This document shows positions 3,110 through 49,113 of a stretch of DNA of 49,288 bases, one piece after another. Source of the stretch: a virus; IMG/VR virus record IMGVR_UViG_3300025771_000039, positions 1 through 49,288 of that record. The stretch is one strand, 5' to 3'. Each line of letters opens with the position of its first letter. The first letter of the stretch is position 1. A program made the position numbers and the translations under genes. The notes under the pieces are model-generated. The model was not told the origin of the DNA. It made no database searches and saw only the letters and a program-made list of their open reading frames with translations.

Positions 3110-3929
3110 TCTTTTTATCCTCTATTAAATGCTTTAATTCCAGTGTCTTTGCTATAACATCTGGATCGTTGATCCTTGGTATCTGTGCTTCGATCTGAAC
3201 TAATATCGAACCTTTCCTACCTGTTCTAACATCGCTCATTCCATATCCACGCATTGCCAATGTTGTGCCTGATTTTGTGCCTTTAGGTATATTCAAATTT
3301 AAACTCTTTTTATCTGGAGTTTCTATTAGTATAACACATCCTAGCATAATGTCAAATACATTTACAAACTTTTTAGTAACAAGATCGTTACCTTGTCTCT
3401 GCCAGCCCGCAGGTAATCTTACACGTATCTTAACATAAAGGTCACCTCTGCCAACTCTAGGATCTGTATTGTCGCCCAGTCCTTTATAACGTACTGTGTC
3501 TCCGTCATTTGCTCCAACTGGTACTTGTACATTTATAAATTCTGTTTTCCCGTTTGCCATTTGGTACGATGCTGTTACAATCTTACCGTAGAACGCATCT
3601 TCAAACTCTACAACAAGATTGATTCTTATATCTCTATTTTGTGGTTGCCTGCGTTGTTGATGCATTTGGTTAAAGATGTCACCAAATGGATGCCGGCCAA
3701 ACGGATTGTGTTGGGAGTTAAAGTGAAAGTCGTTTTTGGGTTGAGGATTATCGTATTCTTGGCGTTTTTCTGCATTACCTAAAATTTCGTAAGCTTCAGT
3801 TACATGTTTAAATGTTTCTTCATTTCCGCCGCGGTCAGGATGATGTTGCATTGCTGCTTTTTTAAAAGCTTTTTTAATTTCATCCTGACTTGCTGTTTTG
3901 TTAACCCCTAGTACATTATAATAATTCAT
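3102..3929 (-). CDS. dnaJ: DnaJ/CbpA-type J-domain co-chaperone
   Basis: 275 residues. An N-terminal J-domain carries HPD at 30-32, followed by a Gly/Phe/Asn-rich linker (about 65-95) with HNPFGRHPFGD. Two C-terminal beta-sandwich substrate domains follow (for example GDTVRYKGLGDNT and LNIPKGTKSGT). There is no CXXCXGXG zinc finger, so it is a class II, CbpA-like J protein. Known role: stimulate Hsp70 (DnaK) ATPase and deliver clients. No DnaK is present in the window, so host DnaK is the likely partner. Its stop overlaps the clpA start by 8 bases, suggesting coupled expression. No strong Shine-Dalgarno precedes the ATG. Confidence 0.92.
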   Translation of the reverse strand: MNYYNVLGVNKTASQDEIKKAFKKAAMQHHPDRGGNEETFKHVTEAYEILGNAEKRQEYDNPQPKNDFHFNSQHNPFGRHPFGDIFNQMHQQRRQPQNRDIRINLVVEFEDAFYGKIVTASYQMANGKTEFINVQVPVGANDGDTVRYKGLGDNTDPRVGRGDLYVKIRVRLPAGWQRQGNDLVTKKFVNVFDIMLGCVILIETPDKKSLNLNIPKGTKSGTTLAMRGYGMSDVRTGRKGSILVQIEAQIPRINDPDVIAKTLELKHLIEDKKNG

Positions 3930-4297: not shown

Positions 4298-5076
4298 TAC
4301 CCTAATTTCCTTTTATTTAAATCCCTTTGGTAGTTCTCAATGTGCTTGATATATTCGTCTATGCTATGATCAGAAAATGCATCTATCTTACCAGCTTTAA
4401 GACCTTTCCACATGCCTTTTAATCTGTCTTTCCATTTTGTTATACCTGCTACATTACGTATAGTACCATTAGAGCAAATGTATTCCTCTGTCCCATGGTG
4501 TCTATAACCCATTATGATCAATGGAACAGTTGTAACTATGTCATTGTTATTTCTCCAACGATAATGATCTATATCAAGACTGTTGCAATAACCACGCCAA
4601 CCTACTCTTGGCGAGCCGTATGTATAAAGTTCTTCTGGATCAGGAATACTTTTTTCGTGCTTACAACGACTCGCCATTATAGTTGCCATTGCTGCGCCTA
4701 AACTGTGGCCACAAAACCACAGATCTTGCTCAGGTTTCAAGTCCCTCAAGTCATCGAGGATCATTGGCCAAAGAGCGTCTACCTCACTCTTAAATCCTTT
4801 GTGTACTCTTGAAACTGTCTCAGCTAGGACTGGAATGGCTCGTAGGTCTGCTTCTACATCATTCCACTCATTGGGTTGGGTGCCCCGACAAGCTATCACA
4901 AGATCTGTGGTGTTGGCAAAGCGGTATGCTTGCGCCCCGCTTTTTTCATAGAATTCGCATACATCGAATCCTAATTCCTTAGCAGCTTTCTTTGCTGCTT
5001 TTTTTTCTAAATACGCTATTTTAGCAAGTTTAGCGAATAGTAAACTGCGCTCAACGAATGCTGTGTCTATTATCAT
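4297..5076 (-). CDS. Class 3 lipase-like alpha/beta hydrolase
   Basis: 259 residues. The nucleophile elbow GHSLG is at 123-127 (Ser125), followed by the class 3 hallmarks LYTYGSPRVGW, an Asp in NDIVTTVP and a C-terminal His in DHSIDEYI, giving a plausible Ser-Asp-His triad. The family (fungal lipase-like, alpha/beta hydrolase) cleaves acylglycerols or phospholipids. No signal peptide is evident. A good ribosome site (GAGGG) precedes the ATG. Position inside the lysis cassette suggests membrane lipid attack during lysis or release; that role is inference. It overlaps the upstream gene by 26 bases. Confidence 0.88.
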   Translation of the reverse strand: MIIDTAFVERSLLFAKLAKIAYLEKKAAKKAAKELGFDVCEFYEKSGAQAYRFANTTDLVIACRGTQPNEWNDVEADLRAIPVLAETVSRVHKGFKSEVDALWPMILDDLRDLKPEQDLWFCGHSLGAAMATIMASRCKHEKSIPDPEELYTYGSPRVGWRGYCNSLDIDHYRWRNNNDIVTTVPLIIMGYRHHGTEEYICSNGTIRNVAGITKWKDRLKGMWKGLKAGKIDAFSDHSIDEYIKHIENYQRDLNKRKLG

Positions 5077-9033: not shown

Positions 9034-9756
9034 ATGGGTGCCAAACGAGCGCAAAAAAAACTAAAACAATCACATAAATCAACTAACGTCGTTAAATTAA
9101 ACGCTTTCACAAAGAAAAAAGCAGTAGAAATAATTCCAAGAAATAAAAATCAAGAAACGTATACACTAAAATTGCTAGATGATCGCAAGGATATTGTATT
9201 CGGTATCGGCCCGGCTGGAACGGGTAAGACTCTACTGGCTGTACAATGTGCAGTAAAATTATTTAAAGAAGGCGCAGTTGATAAAATTATAGTAACTAGA
9301 CCTGCTGTATCAGTAGACGAAAATCTAGGAGCACTACCGGGAACATTAGAAGAAAAAATGGCTCCGTGGACAAGACCTATATTTGATGTACTACGTGAAT
9401 ATTTTGATGCAGGACAAATTACTGGTATGATAACAGAAGGAATTATTGAAATATCTCCATTAGCATATATGCGAGGAAGAACTTTTAAAAATAGTTTTAT
9501 TATCGCAGACGAAATGCAAAACGCAACTCGTAATCAAATGAAAATGTTATTAACAAGAATCGGCGAAGGGTCGATGATGGCTGTCACAGGCGATCTAAAT
9601 CAAGCAGATAGACTAAAAGATAACGGGCTAATAGATTTTGTAAGAAATATCGAAAATAAAAATCTAGAAAGAATCGATTGTGTCACTTTTGGCAGAGACG
9701 ATATCGAACGTCACGAAGCTGTTAAAGAAGTATTACAACTTTACGGCGACGACTAA
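9034..9756 (+). CDS. phoH: PhoH-like P-loop ATPase
   Basis: 240 residues. Walker A GPAGTGKT is at 59-66, Walker B FIIADEMQNA near 163-172, with the PhoH signatures VTRPAVSVDE and TGDLNQAD. The basic N-terminus (1-35) is Lys-rich. PhoH is very common in marine phages. It belongs to a helicase-superfamily-1-like ATPase family linked to phosphate stress or RNA metabolism in bacteria, and its phage role is unsettled. It is one of only a few plus-strand genes here and is preceded by AAGGAGG and a structured leader. Its stop overlaps the stop of the convergent gene. Confidence 0.95.
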   Translation: MGAKRAQKKLKQSHKSTNVVKLNAFTKKKAVEIIPRNKNQETYTLKLLDDRKDIVFGIGPAGTGKTLLAVQCAVKLFKEGAVDKIIVTRPAVSVDENLGALPGTLEEKMAPWTRPIFDVLREYFDAGQITGMITEGIIEISPLAYMRGRTFKNSFIIADEMQNATRNQMKMLLTRIGEGSMMAVTGDLNQADRLKDNGLIDFVRNIENKNLERIDCVTFGRDDIERHEAVKEVLQLYGDD

Positions 9757-9992
9757 ACAGTTGGGAGTGGATTTTTATGTCCACTCCTTAACAAATACAT
9801 TAAGTATTCATTCTCACTATAAATTAATTCCCATGCATTACCTTTTATAGGCGGCCTGCCCATTACATCGTAGTAAACTCTAGAACGCCAATATTTCTTT
9901 AACCAAATACGTTTTTTGCTCCAGCTACTACGAACAGGTAGCCATGCATAATCTTCACGCCATTCTACATGAATCTCAGAGTGCTGAGGCAT
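9753..9992 (-). CDS. Hypothetical protein, 79 aa
   Basis: 79 residues, rich in Trp, Tyr and Arg (WREDYAWLPVRSSWSKKRIWLKKYW), so it may bind nucleic acid, but no family is recognised. It ends tail to tail with phoH (stops overlap within CTAA) and its start shares a base with the thyA stop, placing it at the end of the nucleotide-metabolism unit. Confidence 0.7.
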   Translation of the reverse strand: MPQHSEIHVEWREDYAWLPVRSSWSKKRIWLKKYWRSRVYYDVMGRPPIKGNAWELIYSENEYLMYLLRSGHKNPLPTV

Positions 9993-36610: not shown

Positions 36611-36887
36611 TTAAGTTTCTAATAGTAGTCAGTTCTGACTCTTGGCGAGTAGTCTTACGTTCTAATACGTTAATGGCTGCTCGCATTTTTTTCTGTTGAT
36701 CCTCAAGGCTACGCACATATGCTTGTGTTGGTATCTCTTGTGTGGATCCATCTTCTGCAATAATTTTATAAGAATCAGCGCCCTGCGCTCTAAGGCCGCC
36801 AGTAACTCTGTTTGGGTTTTTATCCGAGGACGGTGTCTCTAGTGTCTTGCTCTTCCGACCGTACATGCTGCTCAAGTAATTGCTCAT
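36597..36887 (-). CDS. Hypothetical protein, 96 aa, late-type promoter
   Basis: 96 residues from ATG 36887, with AAGGA 7 bases upstream and a perfect TATAAATA at 36905-36912. The middle has KIIAEDGSTQEIPTQAYV and the C-terminus is a coiled coil (LEDQQKKMRAAINVLERKTTRQ). It overlaps the uvdE 3' end by 68 bases in another frame and the H1-like gene by 14 bases tail to tail. The late promoter suggests a virion or assembly role. Confidence 0.75.
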   Translation of the reverse strand: MSNYLSSMYGRKSKTLETPSSDKNPNRVTGGLRAQGADSYKIIAEDGSTQEIPTQAYVRSLEDQQKKMRAAINVLERKTTRQESELTTIRNLIKRT

Positions 36888-37911
36888 TATCTTTTCCTTC
36901 ATTGTATTTATAAAGGCCAATGCTTGCTAAGTTCTTACATTTGGATTCTACCATAATGTCAGCGTAGGGTAAAAATCTTAATGCCCAATCATTAACCGCA
37001 GTATTCCACATGTAGTCACTGTGTGCTCGCATCTTTGCTTTCTTGTAGCCTTGCTCTAGCAATGCTTGAAAGTCAGGCTTTGTGTCTGGACGTTGATCAA
37101 CAAGACAGTCTTCACGGCTTACACTGTAATGTATTGCAGGACGCACGCCACGCCAACTGTTAATGATTCTCTTAAATCTATCATCTGTTGGTTCAATATA
37201 TTCGCCTCCACTATTACACCAGTGGTGATGAATGTCTAGAACCAACGCCACATCTTTCTCCAAACACAAGGATGCATCGATTCCCCATTTGTTTTCGTCG
37301 TTCTCGATAGTGATACAATTACGGGCTTCGGGGGTGAGTCGTTTAAGTGCGGCTTGGATACCGGCTGGACCTTTTCTACCGGAGATGTGGACGTTGCACT
37401 TGAAGTCTTGGAACTGTTTACCGTAGCCCATGTACCGTGCAACATTGATATGATACTCAAATTCCTCAATTGACCGCTCTACGATTTCTTCACTATCTGA
37501 AGCAAGGACTGTAAATTGGCCTGGGTGCATGGAGAGTCGAACATCGAGTCTTCTTGCTTCGTCTCCAACTTTTGCGAATTCTCTTTCGCAGTATGCCACC
37601 ACATCAGGGCGCTGCCAAAAATAGCTCCAGTCACGCTGGGTATAAACAGGAAGCACATCGCTACCCAATCGGACCATACGAAGACCTGGTTCAAGAGATC
37701 CAACATACTGAATCAACCTTTTGTATGACGCAATGTTATGGACCATAATGTCCCACAAGCGTTCTTCAGCAACAGTCTTAGTTTGACGGTTAAGCCATTG
37801 AACTGTTGTGCTTCGAGTATTTAGCGGACGTTGTAGGTCCTCTAAAATTTGTTTCTTAGCACTTTGATTAGGGTGCATGTATTTGCAAGCAAATCCGATA
37901 CGCTTAATCAT
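36820..37911 (-). CDS. uvdE: UV-damage endonuclease UvdE
   Basis: 363 residues. TIM-barrel UvdE features: RIGFACKYMHPN at the start, MVRLGSDVLPVYTQRDWSYF, RLSMHPGQFTVLAS, VHISGRKGPAG, TIENDENKWG, DIHHHWCNSGGEYI and SDYMWNTAVNDWALRFLP, which hold the metal-binding His/Glu/Asp set. Known reaction: 5' nicking at cyclobutane dimers and 6-4 photoproducts, starting repair independent of UvrABC. It would suit a surface-ocean phage. The last 25 residues overlap the next gene and are probably non-essential. It is coupled to the 56-aa gene upstream. Confidence 0.93.
   Translation of the reverse strand: MIKRIGFACKYMHPNQSAKKQILEDLQRPLNTRSTTVQWLNRQTKTVAEERLWDIMVHNIASYKRLIQYVGSLEPGLRMVRLGSDVLPVYTQRDWSYFWQRPDVVAYCEREFAKVGDEARRLDVRLSMHPGQFTVLASDSEEIVERSIEEFEYHINVARYMGYGKQFQDFKCNVHISGRKGPAGIQAALKRLTPEARNCITIENDENKWGIDASLCLEKDVALVLDIHHHWCNSGGEYIEPTDDRFKRIINSWRGVRPAIHYSVSREDCLVDQRPDTKPDFQALLEQGYKKAKMRAHSDYMWNTAVNDWALRFLPYADIMVESKCKNLASIGLYKYNEGKDNEQLLEQHVRSEEQDTRDTVLG
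36905..36912 (-). promoter_or_regulatory. Late promoter, perfect TATAAATA
   Basis: Minus-strand TATAAATA followed by C, 17 bases before the ATG at 36887. It lies inside the uvdE coding region. Exact match to the T4 late consensus. Confidence 0.7.
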
Positions 37912-48674: not shown

Positions 48675-48751
48675 TGGTCTTGGTGGCAGGATTTGAACCT
48701 GCGATCTCTTGCACCCAAAGCAAGCGCCTTACCAGACTAGGCCACACCAAG
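48675..48751 (-). tRNA. tRNA-Pro(UGG) with encoded CCA
   Basis: 77 nt folding as a standard class I tRNA: acceptor CTTGGTG/CACCAAG, D-arm GCCT/AGGC, anticodon stem CTTGC/GCAAG with loop TTTGGGT (anticodon TGG, Pro), 5-base variable region, T-arm GCAGG/CCTGC with loop TTCAAAT. C1-G72 and A73 fit bacterial proline identity. CCA is encoded. It lies 2 bases after tRNA-Trp, so both probably come from one transcript. Confidence 0.95.
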
Positions 48752-48753
48752 AT

Positions 48754-48838
48754 TGGCACCGGAGTAGGGATTCGAACCCTATAAGCTCACGCACTGGTTT
48801 TGGAGACCAGCATACCTCTCCAACTGTATCGCTCCGGC
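48754..48838 (-). tRNA. tRNA-Trp(CCA) with long variable region
   Basis: 85 nt. Acceptor GCCGGAG/CTCCGGT (first pair G-U), D-stem ATAC/GTAT, anticodon stem CTGGT/ACCAG with loop CTCCAAA (anticodon CCA, Trp), T-stem TAGGG/CCCTA with loop TTCGAAT, discriminator G73 as in bacterial tRNA-Trp, CCA encoded. Between the anticodon and T stems are 12 bases instead of the usual 4-5 of tRNA-Trp, a length nearer class II tRNAs. Everything else fits Trp. It sits downstream of a leader rich in Trp codons. Confidence 0.88.
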
Positions 48839-48855: not shown

Positions 48856-48931
48856 AACTACACTATCTTTAGCCCTTTCGAGGCCTCTGTCTCTGCAACG
48901 ACACCTTATTGCAGTAAGGTGTAGTGTAGTT
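48856..48931 (-). ncRNA. Structured RNA element between terminator and tRNA-Trp
   Basis: A 9-bp closing stem, AACTACACT (minus 48931-48923) with AGTGTAGTT (minus 48864-48856), encloses an 8-bp hairpin ACACCTTA/TAAGGTGT (48901-48922) with loop CTGCAA, a complementary TTGCAG two bases further on, and a smaller GCC/GGC hairpin. The loop complementarity could give an alternative hairpin. No ORF spans it. It may be a processing or regulatory RNA; it is not matched to any named family by me. Confidence 0.55.
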
Positions 48932-48933
48932 AT

Positions 48934-48971
48934 AAAAAAAGCCCCTAACAAATTTAATGCTAGGGGCTGTT
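48934..48971 (-). terminator. Strong intrinsic terminator in tRNA leader
   Basis: On the minus strand AGCCCCTA (48968-48961) pairs with TAGGGGCT (48947-48940), extended by three further pairs into the loop to about 11 bp, followed by a run of seven T (48940-48934). It forms the 3:4 hairpin of the proposed attenuator and would stop transcription before the tRNAs. Confidence 0.88.
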
Positions 48972-49008
48972 GGAATAACTTTTTTATAAAGTCATGTTAG
49001 AACAACCC

Positions 49009-49056
49009 CTACAATGTCGGGCACCACCAATTAATAAATGTTACTGTTCTAATCAT
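49009..49056 (-). CDS. Leader peptide MIRTVTFINWWCPTL
   Basis: A 15-codon ORF starting about 22 bases after the expected transcription start. It has two adjacent Trp codons (TGG TGG), then Cys and Pro (CCG), and ends at TAG, which is the first base triplet of antiterminator region 2. The two tRNAs downstream are Trp and Pro. Only a weak Shine-Dalgarno (GAAAG/AAGAAG) is visible, which is the main doubt about translation. Confidence 0.6.
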   Translation of the reverse strand: MIRTVTFINWWCPTL

Positions 49057-49084
49057 CTTCTTATTCTTTCTTTGCTATGTAATT

Positions 49085-49113
49085 ACTATACTACATTTAT
49101 TTAGTGTTGTCAA
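49085..49113 (-). promoter_or_regulatory. Sigma70-like promoter of the tRNA leader
   Basis: Minus-strand TTGACA (49113-49108), 17 bp, TATAGT (49090-49085), starting 3 bases after the ligase stop. It should start a transcript near 49078 that runs through the leader ORF into the attenuator. The 277 bases between the ligase stop and tRNA-Trp hold no larger gene. Confidence 0.85.

Follow-up and report, generated by a model that had tools for sequence, protein, structure and literature searches.

A predicted trp-type transcription attenuator ahead of phage tRNA genes

The tRNA-Trp and tRNA-Pro genes of the window (i.e., the whole stretch of DNA analysed here, an IMG/VR fragment of 49,288 nucleotides from an uncultured marine bacteriophage) are preceded by an element that, judging from its sequence, is very probably a ribosome-mediated transcription attenuator of the trp type, one that would sense scarce charged tRNA-Trp (along with those for Cys, Pro and Ser) and respond by transcribing phage tRNAs. 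Attenuators of this class are already known, but neither Rfam nor the literature searched contained one that a phage applies to tRNA genes. We are not aware of any described phage tRNA operon with a sensor of tRNA supply. An earlier note on this DNA, made from the sequence alone, knew of no phage tRNA operon regulated in this way, and our literature search, which lay outside most subscription journals and all bioRxiv preprints, agrees in having found no paper on such an operon.

Architecture of the element in the window

The earlier note had described a consensus-like sigma70 promoter, a 15-codon ORF with TGG TGG TGC CCG, a region 2 beginning at the leader stop codon, three mutually exclusive pairings that include a terminator, and tRNA-Trp and tRNA-Pro as the next genes. 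All of these could be located (Table 1), with 11 of 12 promoter positions matching the consensus, a stop codon that ends at 49009, inside region 2, and both tRNA genes called directly downstream by ARAGORN, which found no further tRNA genes in the window. Within the leader ORF, whose Shine-Dalgarno sequence is weak, TGG TGG occupies 49029-49024 and TGC CCG 49023-49018.

Table 1. Coordinates of the attenuator parts, the second RNA element and the tRNA genes in the window
Feature	Coordinates	Strand	Detail
Promoter, sigma-70 type	49085..49113	-	TTGACA-17-TATAGT; 11/12 consensus positions
Leader ORF	49009..49056	-	MIRTVTFINWWCPTL, 15 codons plus TAG stop (ATG 49056 to TAG 49009)
Region 1	49044..49056	-	TTAGAACAG, plus ATG pairing with CAT; duplex with region 2 -10.3 kcal/mol
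Control codons	49018..49029	-	TGG TGG TGC CCG (Trp10 Trp11 Cys12 Pro13)
Region 2	48994..49011	-	begins at stop codon; partner is region 1 or region 3
Antiterminator hairpin tip	48975..48995	-	ATGACTTT-loop-AAAGTTAT; near-invariant in the family
Region 3	48961..48971	-	AACAGCCCCTA; common to antiterminator and terminator
Intrinsic terminator (3:4)	48934..48968	-	seven T; 98.6% of cells paired (69 sequences)
Second structured RNA (EL)	48856..48931	-	between terminator and tRNA-Trp; covariation
tRNA-Trp (CCA)	48754..48838	-	proposed regulated gene; ARAGORN
tRNA-Pro (UGG)	48675..48751	-	proposed regulated gene; ARAGORN

Pairing 1:2 joins TTAGAACAG to TTGTTCTAA (49052-49044 with 49005-48997), 2:3 joins TAGGGGTTGTT to AACAGCCCCTA (49011-49001 with 48971-48961, one G-U), and the 3:4 terminator, with seven T, is at 48968-48940. 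In addition to what had been noted before, 2:3 forms the base of a longer antiterminator hairpin, the tip of which pairs ATGACTTT with AAAGTTAT. The three pairings exclude one another and 3:4 is an intrinsic terminator, as is characteristic of an attenuator. A fold-energy check had been suggested in the earlier note, and bears it out: the region folds with z = -2.88, better than all 200 shuffles, and the antiterminator hairpin, when GGGG and CCCC at its ends are kept constant, has z = -4.05. Together with the recurrence of the architecture, built from different sequences, in dozens of contigs, these values place it beyond chance.

The second structured RNA, EL, consists of an outer stem, a hairpin and a loop CTGCAA able to pair with TTGCAG, probably as a pseudoknot (the counterpart in L038, read by eye, is CTGCAT/ATGCAG). 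Its outer stem and hairpin covary strongly, with 34 double-changed cells against 12.4 in shuffled alignments. EL accompanies roughly one locus in three, also occurs before tRNA-Cys in L240, and perhaps serves tRNA processing or protection. Elsewhere in the window, a uroporphyrinogen decarboxylase-like gene (Pfam PF01208; 47064-48050, minus strand) adjoins the tRNA and phosphoesterase genes, and a UvdE-type UV endonuclease is encoded at 36820-37911 (minus strand).

A family of leaders in viral contigs

The search for relatives started from the neighbouring phosphoesterase and led to L007, in which a quite different leader (MLKNSTTNITCWPPNNRGTS, followed by a stop) lies ahead of tRNA-Trp. A pattern that specified nothing beyond the antiterminator tip plus CCCC, and made no demand for an ORF, returned 102 contigs, nearly all of them true relatives, and further scans of viral contigs brought the total to about 130 loci. 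The main set holds the 124 loci with a complete element (79 unique leaders, 67 unique peptides).

In all 124, the leader ORF has Trp at one of codons 10-13; ORF assignment required the Trp codon at these positions, and 0 complete elements failed that requirement. The distance from start to Trp is always 27, 30, 33 or 36 nt, so the reading frame is kept through indels, and the ORFs start with ATG or GTG and end with TGA, TAA or TAG. Past the Trp codon the frame is looser (a few leaders stop in a different frame or at an early TAG), which fits an RNA function for that stretch. A locus retaining the terminator and lacking the leader ORF, a kind of relative that the earlier note took to speak against attenuation, was sought and found 0 times in the 124, as was one lacking the Trp codon. 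The first tRNA downstream is tRNA-Trp(CCA) in 121 of the 124; two of the other three have a readable tRNA-Trp missed by ARAGORN and one lies at a contig end; tRNA-Trp heads every cluster with enough downstream DNA. Upstream, 74 of the 79 unique leaders have a near-consensus promoter (10-11 of 12 positions).

Several individual loci are of note. L007 has two tRNA-Trp genes (3326-3410 and 4852-4936); the attenuator stands before one of them, while the other belongs to an array that shows no evident leader. In the 275-kb contig of L216 (G001, 157740-159245) the leader is embedded in a tRNA array, where it splits the upstream tRNAs from tRNA-Trp and tRNA-Pro. A glutamine riboswitch occurs on the leader-bearing contig L061 (1847-1895), and near the leader of L239 there is a tmRNA gene call (9568-9932, plus strand) with the tag ANNNYAPEMALAA. 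L240 (about 2400-2850) places tRNA-Cys and tRNA-Trp after EL and a different terminator; an upstream ORF, beginning MKLITKNFYSWCFMH, has Trp at codon 11 and Cys at codon 12, its 2:3 looks weak, and this may be an attenuator that is unrelated but follows the same logic.

Conservation of the pairings was examined across these sequences, which share ancestry, so that simple p-values are inflated. The earlier note had proposed a covariation test of the pairings, and the outcome was divided: 1:2 covaries, whereas 2:3 shows no covariation above shuffles on a plain MAFFT alignment, though its cognate arms are favoured. Counted together, 1:2 and the terminator helix contain 18 double-changed cells against 4.3 in shuffles and 6 double-changed pairs against 2.1, five of the six in 1:2 and one in the terminator. 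Variants of 1:2 include TCAAGAC/GTCTTGA, GTTAAGA/TCTTAAC, GTCAAT/ATTGAC and, in the window, TTAGAACA/TGTTCTAA; cognate 1:2 arms pair at -9.65 kcal/mol against -7.88 +/- 0.22 for permuted arms (reached in 0 of 5000 permutations). For 2:3 the values are -17.16 and -16.56 +/- 0.14 kcal/mol (fraction 0.0002). This helix is paired in 92.6% of cells of the MAFFT alignment, its changes being mostly G-U; in L217, L218, L238 and L239 it is built from different sequences, and the antiterminator hairpin has a median z of -2.85 across the family. The high paired fraction of 3:4 (Table 1) includes a GCCCC core that belonged to two search patterns.

Outside the family, a nucleotide search of isolate phages gave tRNA matches or noise only and no member. 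The isolate jumbo phages Paride and PA5oct gave weak matches only, in Paride away from tRNA genes. The window's clamp loader shares 55% identity with the clamp loader of these two phages (Arenbergviridae), and the terminase of the element-bearing 275-kb contig shares 54% with theirs; a T4-type capsid model found no match, and its control also matched nowhere. Two pattern scans of 84,980 cellular species genomes yielded no real member (0 matches, then one chance match in a Magnetococcales contig without leader architecture). When the window's own 1:2 arms were scanned for, only chance matches appeared, so no other contig of the collection has exactly these arms. Rfam holds no family for the leader and none for EL: the window scores 19.8 bits with RF00513 (Trp_leader; gathering score 41) and 26.8 bits with the trpB motif RF04312 (gathering score 59), both below membership, and a T-box covariance-model search of the window found no match.

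Leader codons, tRNA cargo and the ribosome walk

An attenuator's control codons are expected to be cognate to the product it regulates, and here the Trp codon and tRNA-Trp are present throughout, and Cys and Ser codons track their tRNAs. Among 60 distinct leader-cluster combinations, with cognate codons counted between Trp-1 and region 2, 76 of 106 non-Trp tRNAs are matched by a cognate control codon, compared with 58.5 +/- 2.7 for permuted clusters (0 of 5000). TCA/TCG codons and tRNA-Ser(UGA) occur together in 8 combinations, with 2 having the codon only, 3 the tRNA only and 47 neither (p = 2.6e-6), and the corresponding numbers for a Cys codon and tRNA-Cys are 27, 21, 1 and 11 (p = 0.0027), p-values whose meaning is limited by shared ancestry and by the part that these codons play in pairing. 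L058 is one of the leaders that bear TCA. Some of the bases near Trp form pairs within 1:2 as well as codons (CAACA/TGTTG; Pro codons with GGGG), such that codon conservation there may be partly structural. The window's own leader is among those carrying a Cys codon with no tRNA-Cys, as are some others. When the closest leader pairs differing in the Cys codon were compared, five differed in tRNA-Cys, all five as predicted.

The lone case of tRNA-Cys without a counted codon is L238, whose Cys codon lies three codons before Trp. This leader has Met, Cys, Trp and Phe codons and its cluster tRNA-Trp, -Cys, -Met and -Phe genes; it keeps the architecture although its terminator and its 1:2 both differ and neither a Cys nor a Pro codon adjoins Trp. 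Single cases are L162, with ATA ATA ATA and tRNA-Ile(UAU), and L048, with two Arg codons and tRNA-Arg. For Gln, Ile, Arg and Glu the codon-tRNA link is not significant overall, and for Gly there is no match, with too few cases in each.

We also moved an in-silico ribosome along all 78 N-free unique leaders, assuming a footprint that reaches from 17 nt before to 12 nt after the first base of the codon in the A site. The median probability of 2:3 switched sharply, being 1.0 as far as the Trp codon, 0.99 one codon later and 0 afterwards, including the stop codon; the codon after Trp is marginal, its lower quartile being 0.01. In the window, the antiterminator probability was 1.0 at Trp10, Trp11 and Cys12, 0.45 at Pro13 and 0 from there on. 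In silico, the control codons are thus placed such that stalling frees region 2 and finished translation blocks it. When RNA up to region 3 is folded to equilibrium without a ribosome, 2:3 is favoured in most members, at a median of 0.98. An untranslated leader would therefore need the right order of folding to terminate, and 1:2 is the first to form (median 0.97). The outer arm of region 1 lies upstream of the stalled ribosome, rather than beneath it as in trpL. The model has its weak points in this position, in the fact that untranslated RNA at equilibrium prefers 2:3, and in the absence of formal covariation from that helix.

Proposed mechanism, alternatives and known systems

From the parts of the element, their conservation, pairings and geometry, and the match of leader codons to tRNA genes, we infer stalling, control of readthrough and the direction of the response. 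Polymerase would start at the phage promoter and make the leader, with a ribosome behind it translating the short ORF. With ample charged tRNA-Trp (and those for Cys and Pro), the ribosome would pass the control codons and cover region 2, whereupon 3:4 would form and transcription would end ahead of the tRNA genes. With charged tRNA-Trp in short supply, the ribosome would stall at Trp10 or Trp11 (or Cys12), leaving region 2 free to join region 3 in the long antiterminator hairpin while region 4 has yet to be transcribed, and polymerase would continue into tRNA-Trp and tRNA-Pro.

It is very unlikely that the W-P-P motif does the work by nascent-peptide or polyproline stalling (compare the synthetic arrest peptide FxxYxIWPPP), with antitermination responding to something besides charged tRNA. 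Most leaders do encode Trp-Pro-Pro, WPPP arrest peptides are known (PMC11669330) and ribosomes are slowed by Pro-Pro (PMC8129111), yet it is Trp that is invariant and not Pro-Pro, as the WPS, WPL, WRR, WCQP, WCSP, WCP, WWCP and WFSE variants show; moreover, the upstream residues of FxxYxIWPPP are not conserved in the leaders, and codon choice tracks the tRNA genes. With Pro-Pro missing in many members, a WPPP-type arrest peptide was set aside.

The structure conserved around the Trp codon (the inner hairpins of 1:2) could alternatively belong to an RNA switch that binds a protein or small molecule, the ORF being incidental, and translation of the leader is itself predicted. This is highly improbable when the ORF and its frame are kept in 124/124 loci despite indels and changes of start and stop codon, when the Trp codon persists in L238 though the local structure differs, and when it sits at the switch point of the ribosome walk. 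Least probable is that a plain terminator of an upstream unit adjoins a chance ORF, with the tRNAs read from elsewhere. Intrinsic terminators often precede tRNA genes, and a few members are without a good promoter of their own, but most have a near-consensus one directly upstream; among terminators counted by sequence alone, all those before tRNA-Trp have a leader ORF where upstream DNA is present, and the 107 same-sequence terminators without tRNA genes fall outside the family.

The trp-type attenuator that we favour differs from the T-box riboswitch, which couples tRNA charging to transcription termination: the T-box binds uncharged tRNA directly without translation, whereas the phage element is proposed to need a translating ribosome. 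The thr and ilv attenuators each respond to multiple amino acids. In E. coli trpL the tandem Trp codons are codons 10 and 11, and stalling at 12 is also effective (PMC1183508). The window's element resembles trpL in its short leader ORF, tandem Trp codons at 10/11, 1:2, 2:3 and 3:4 pairings and intrinsic terminator. Unlike trpL, which governs biosynthetic enzymes, it is predicted to govern tRNA genes; it also has the outer arm of region 1 upstream of the control codons, an antiterminator with its own apical hairpin, and control codons that vary with the tRNA cargo. In the enterobacterial his, leu, thr, ilv and pheA attenuators the control codons are likewise cognate to the operon product (PMC1183508), but the phage output would be tRNA itself, closing the loop on tRNA supply and not on amino-acid synthesis.

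Phage tRNA genes have been found to replace tRNAs cleaved by host defences (PMC10264068, PMC11555353), and the element shares with them a phage-encoded tRNA supply during infection. Those papers deal with tRNA function, the terms 'attenuat', 'leader' and 'promoter' being absent from PMC10264068. The element may, though this is doubtful, act as an on-demand counter-defence sensor, in which destruction of tRNAs by a host nuclease would stall ribosomes at the matching leader codons and bring out replacement phage tRNAs, the codons evolving with the cargo.

The reason for tRNA genes in phages has long been an open question. If the proposed attenuation is true and as widespread as the family, these phages gauge how much charged tRNA an infected cell has and produce replacements only on demand, and attenuation extends from amino-acid synthesis to tRNA supply. 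It would also open the tRNA-depletion idea to a simple reporter test, and the leader codons would predict which tRNAs a phage 'expects' to lose.
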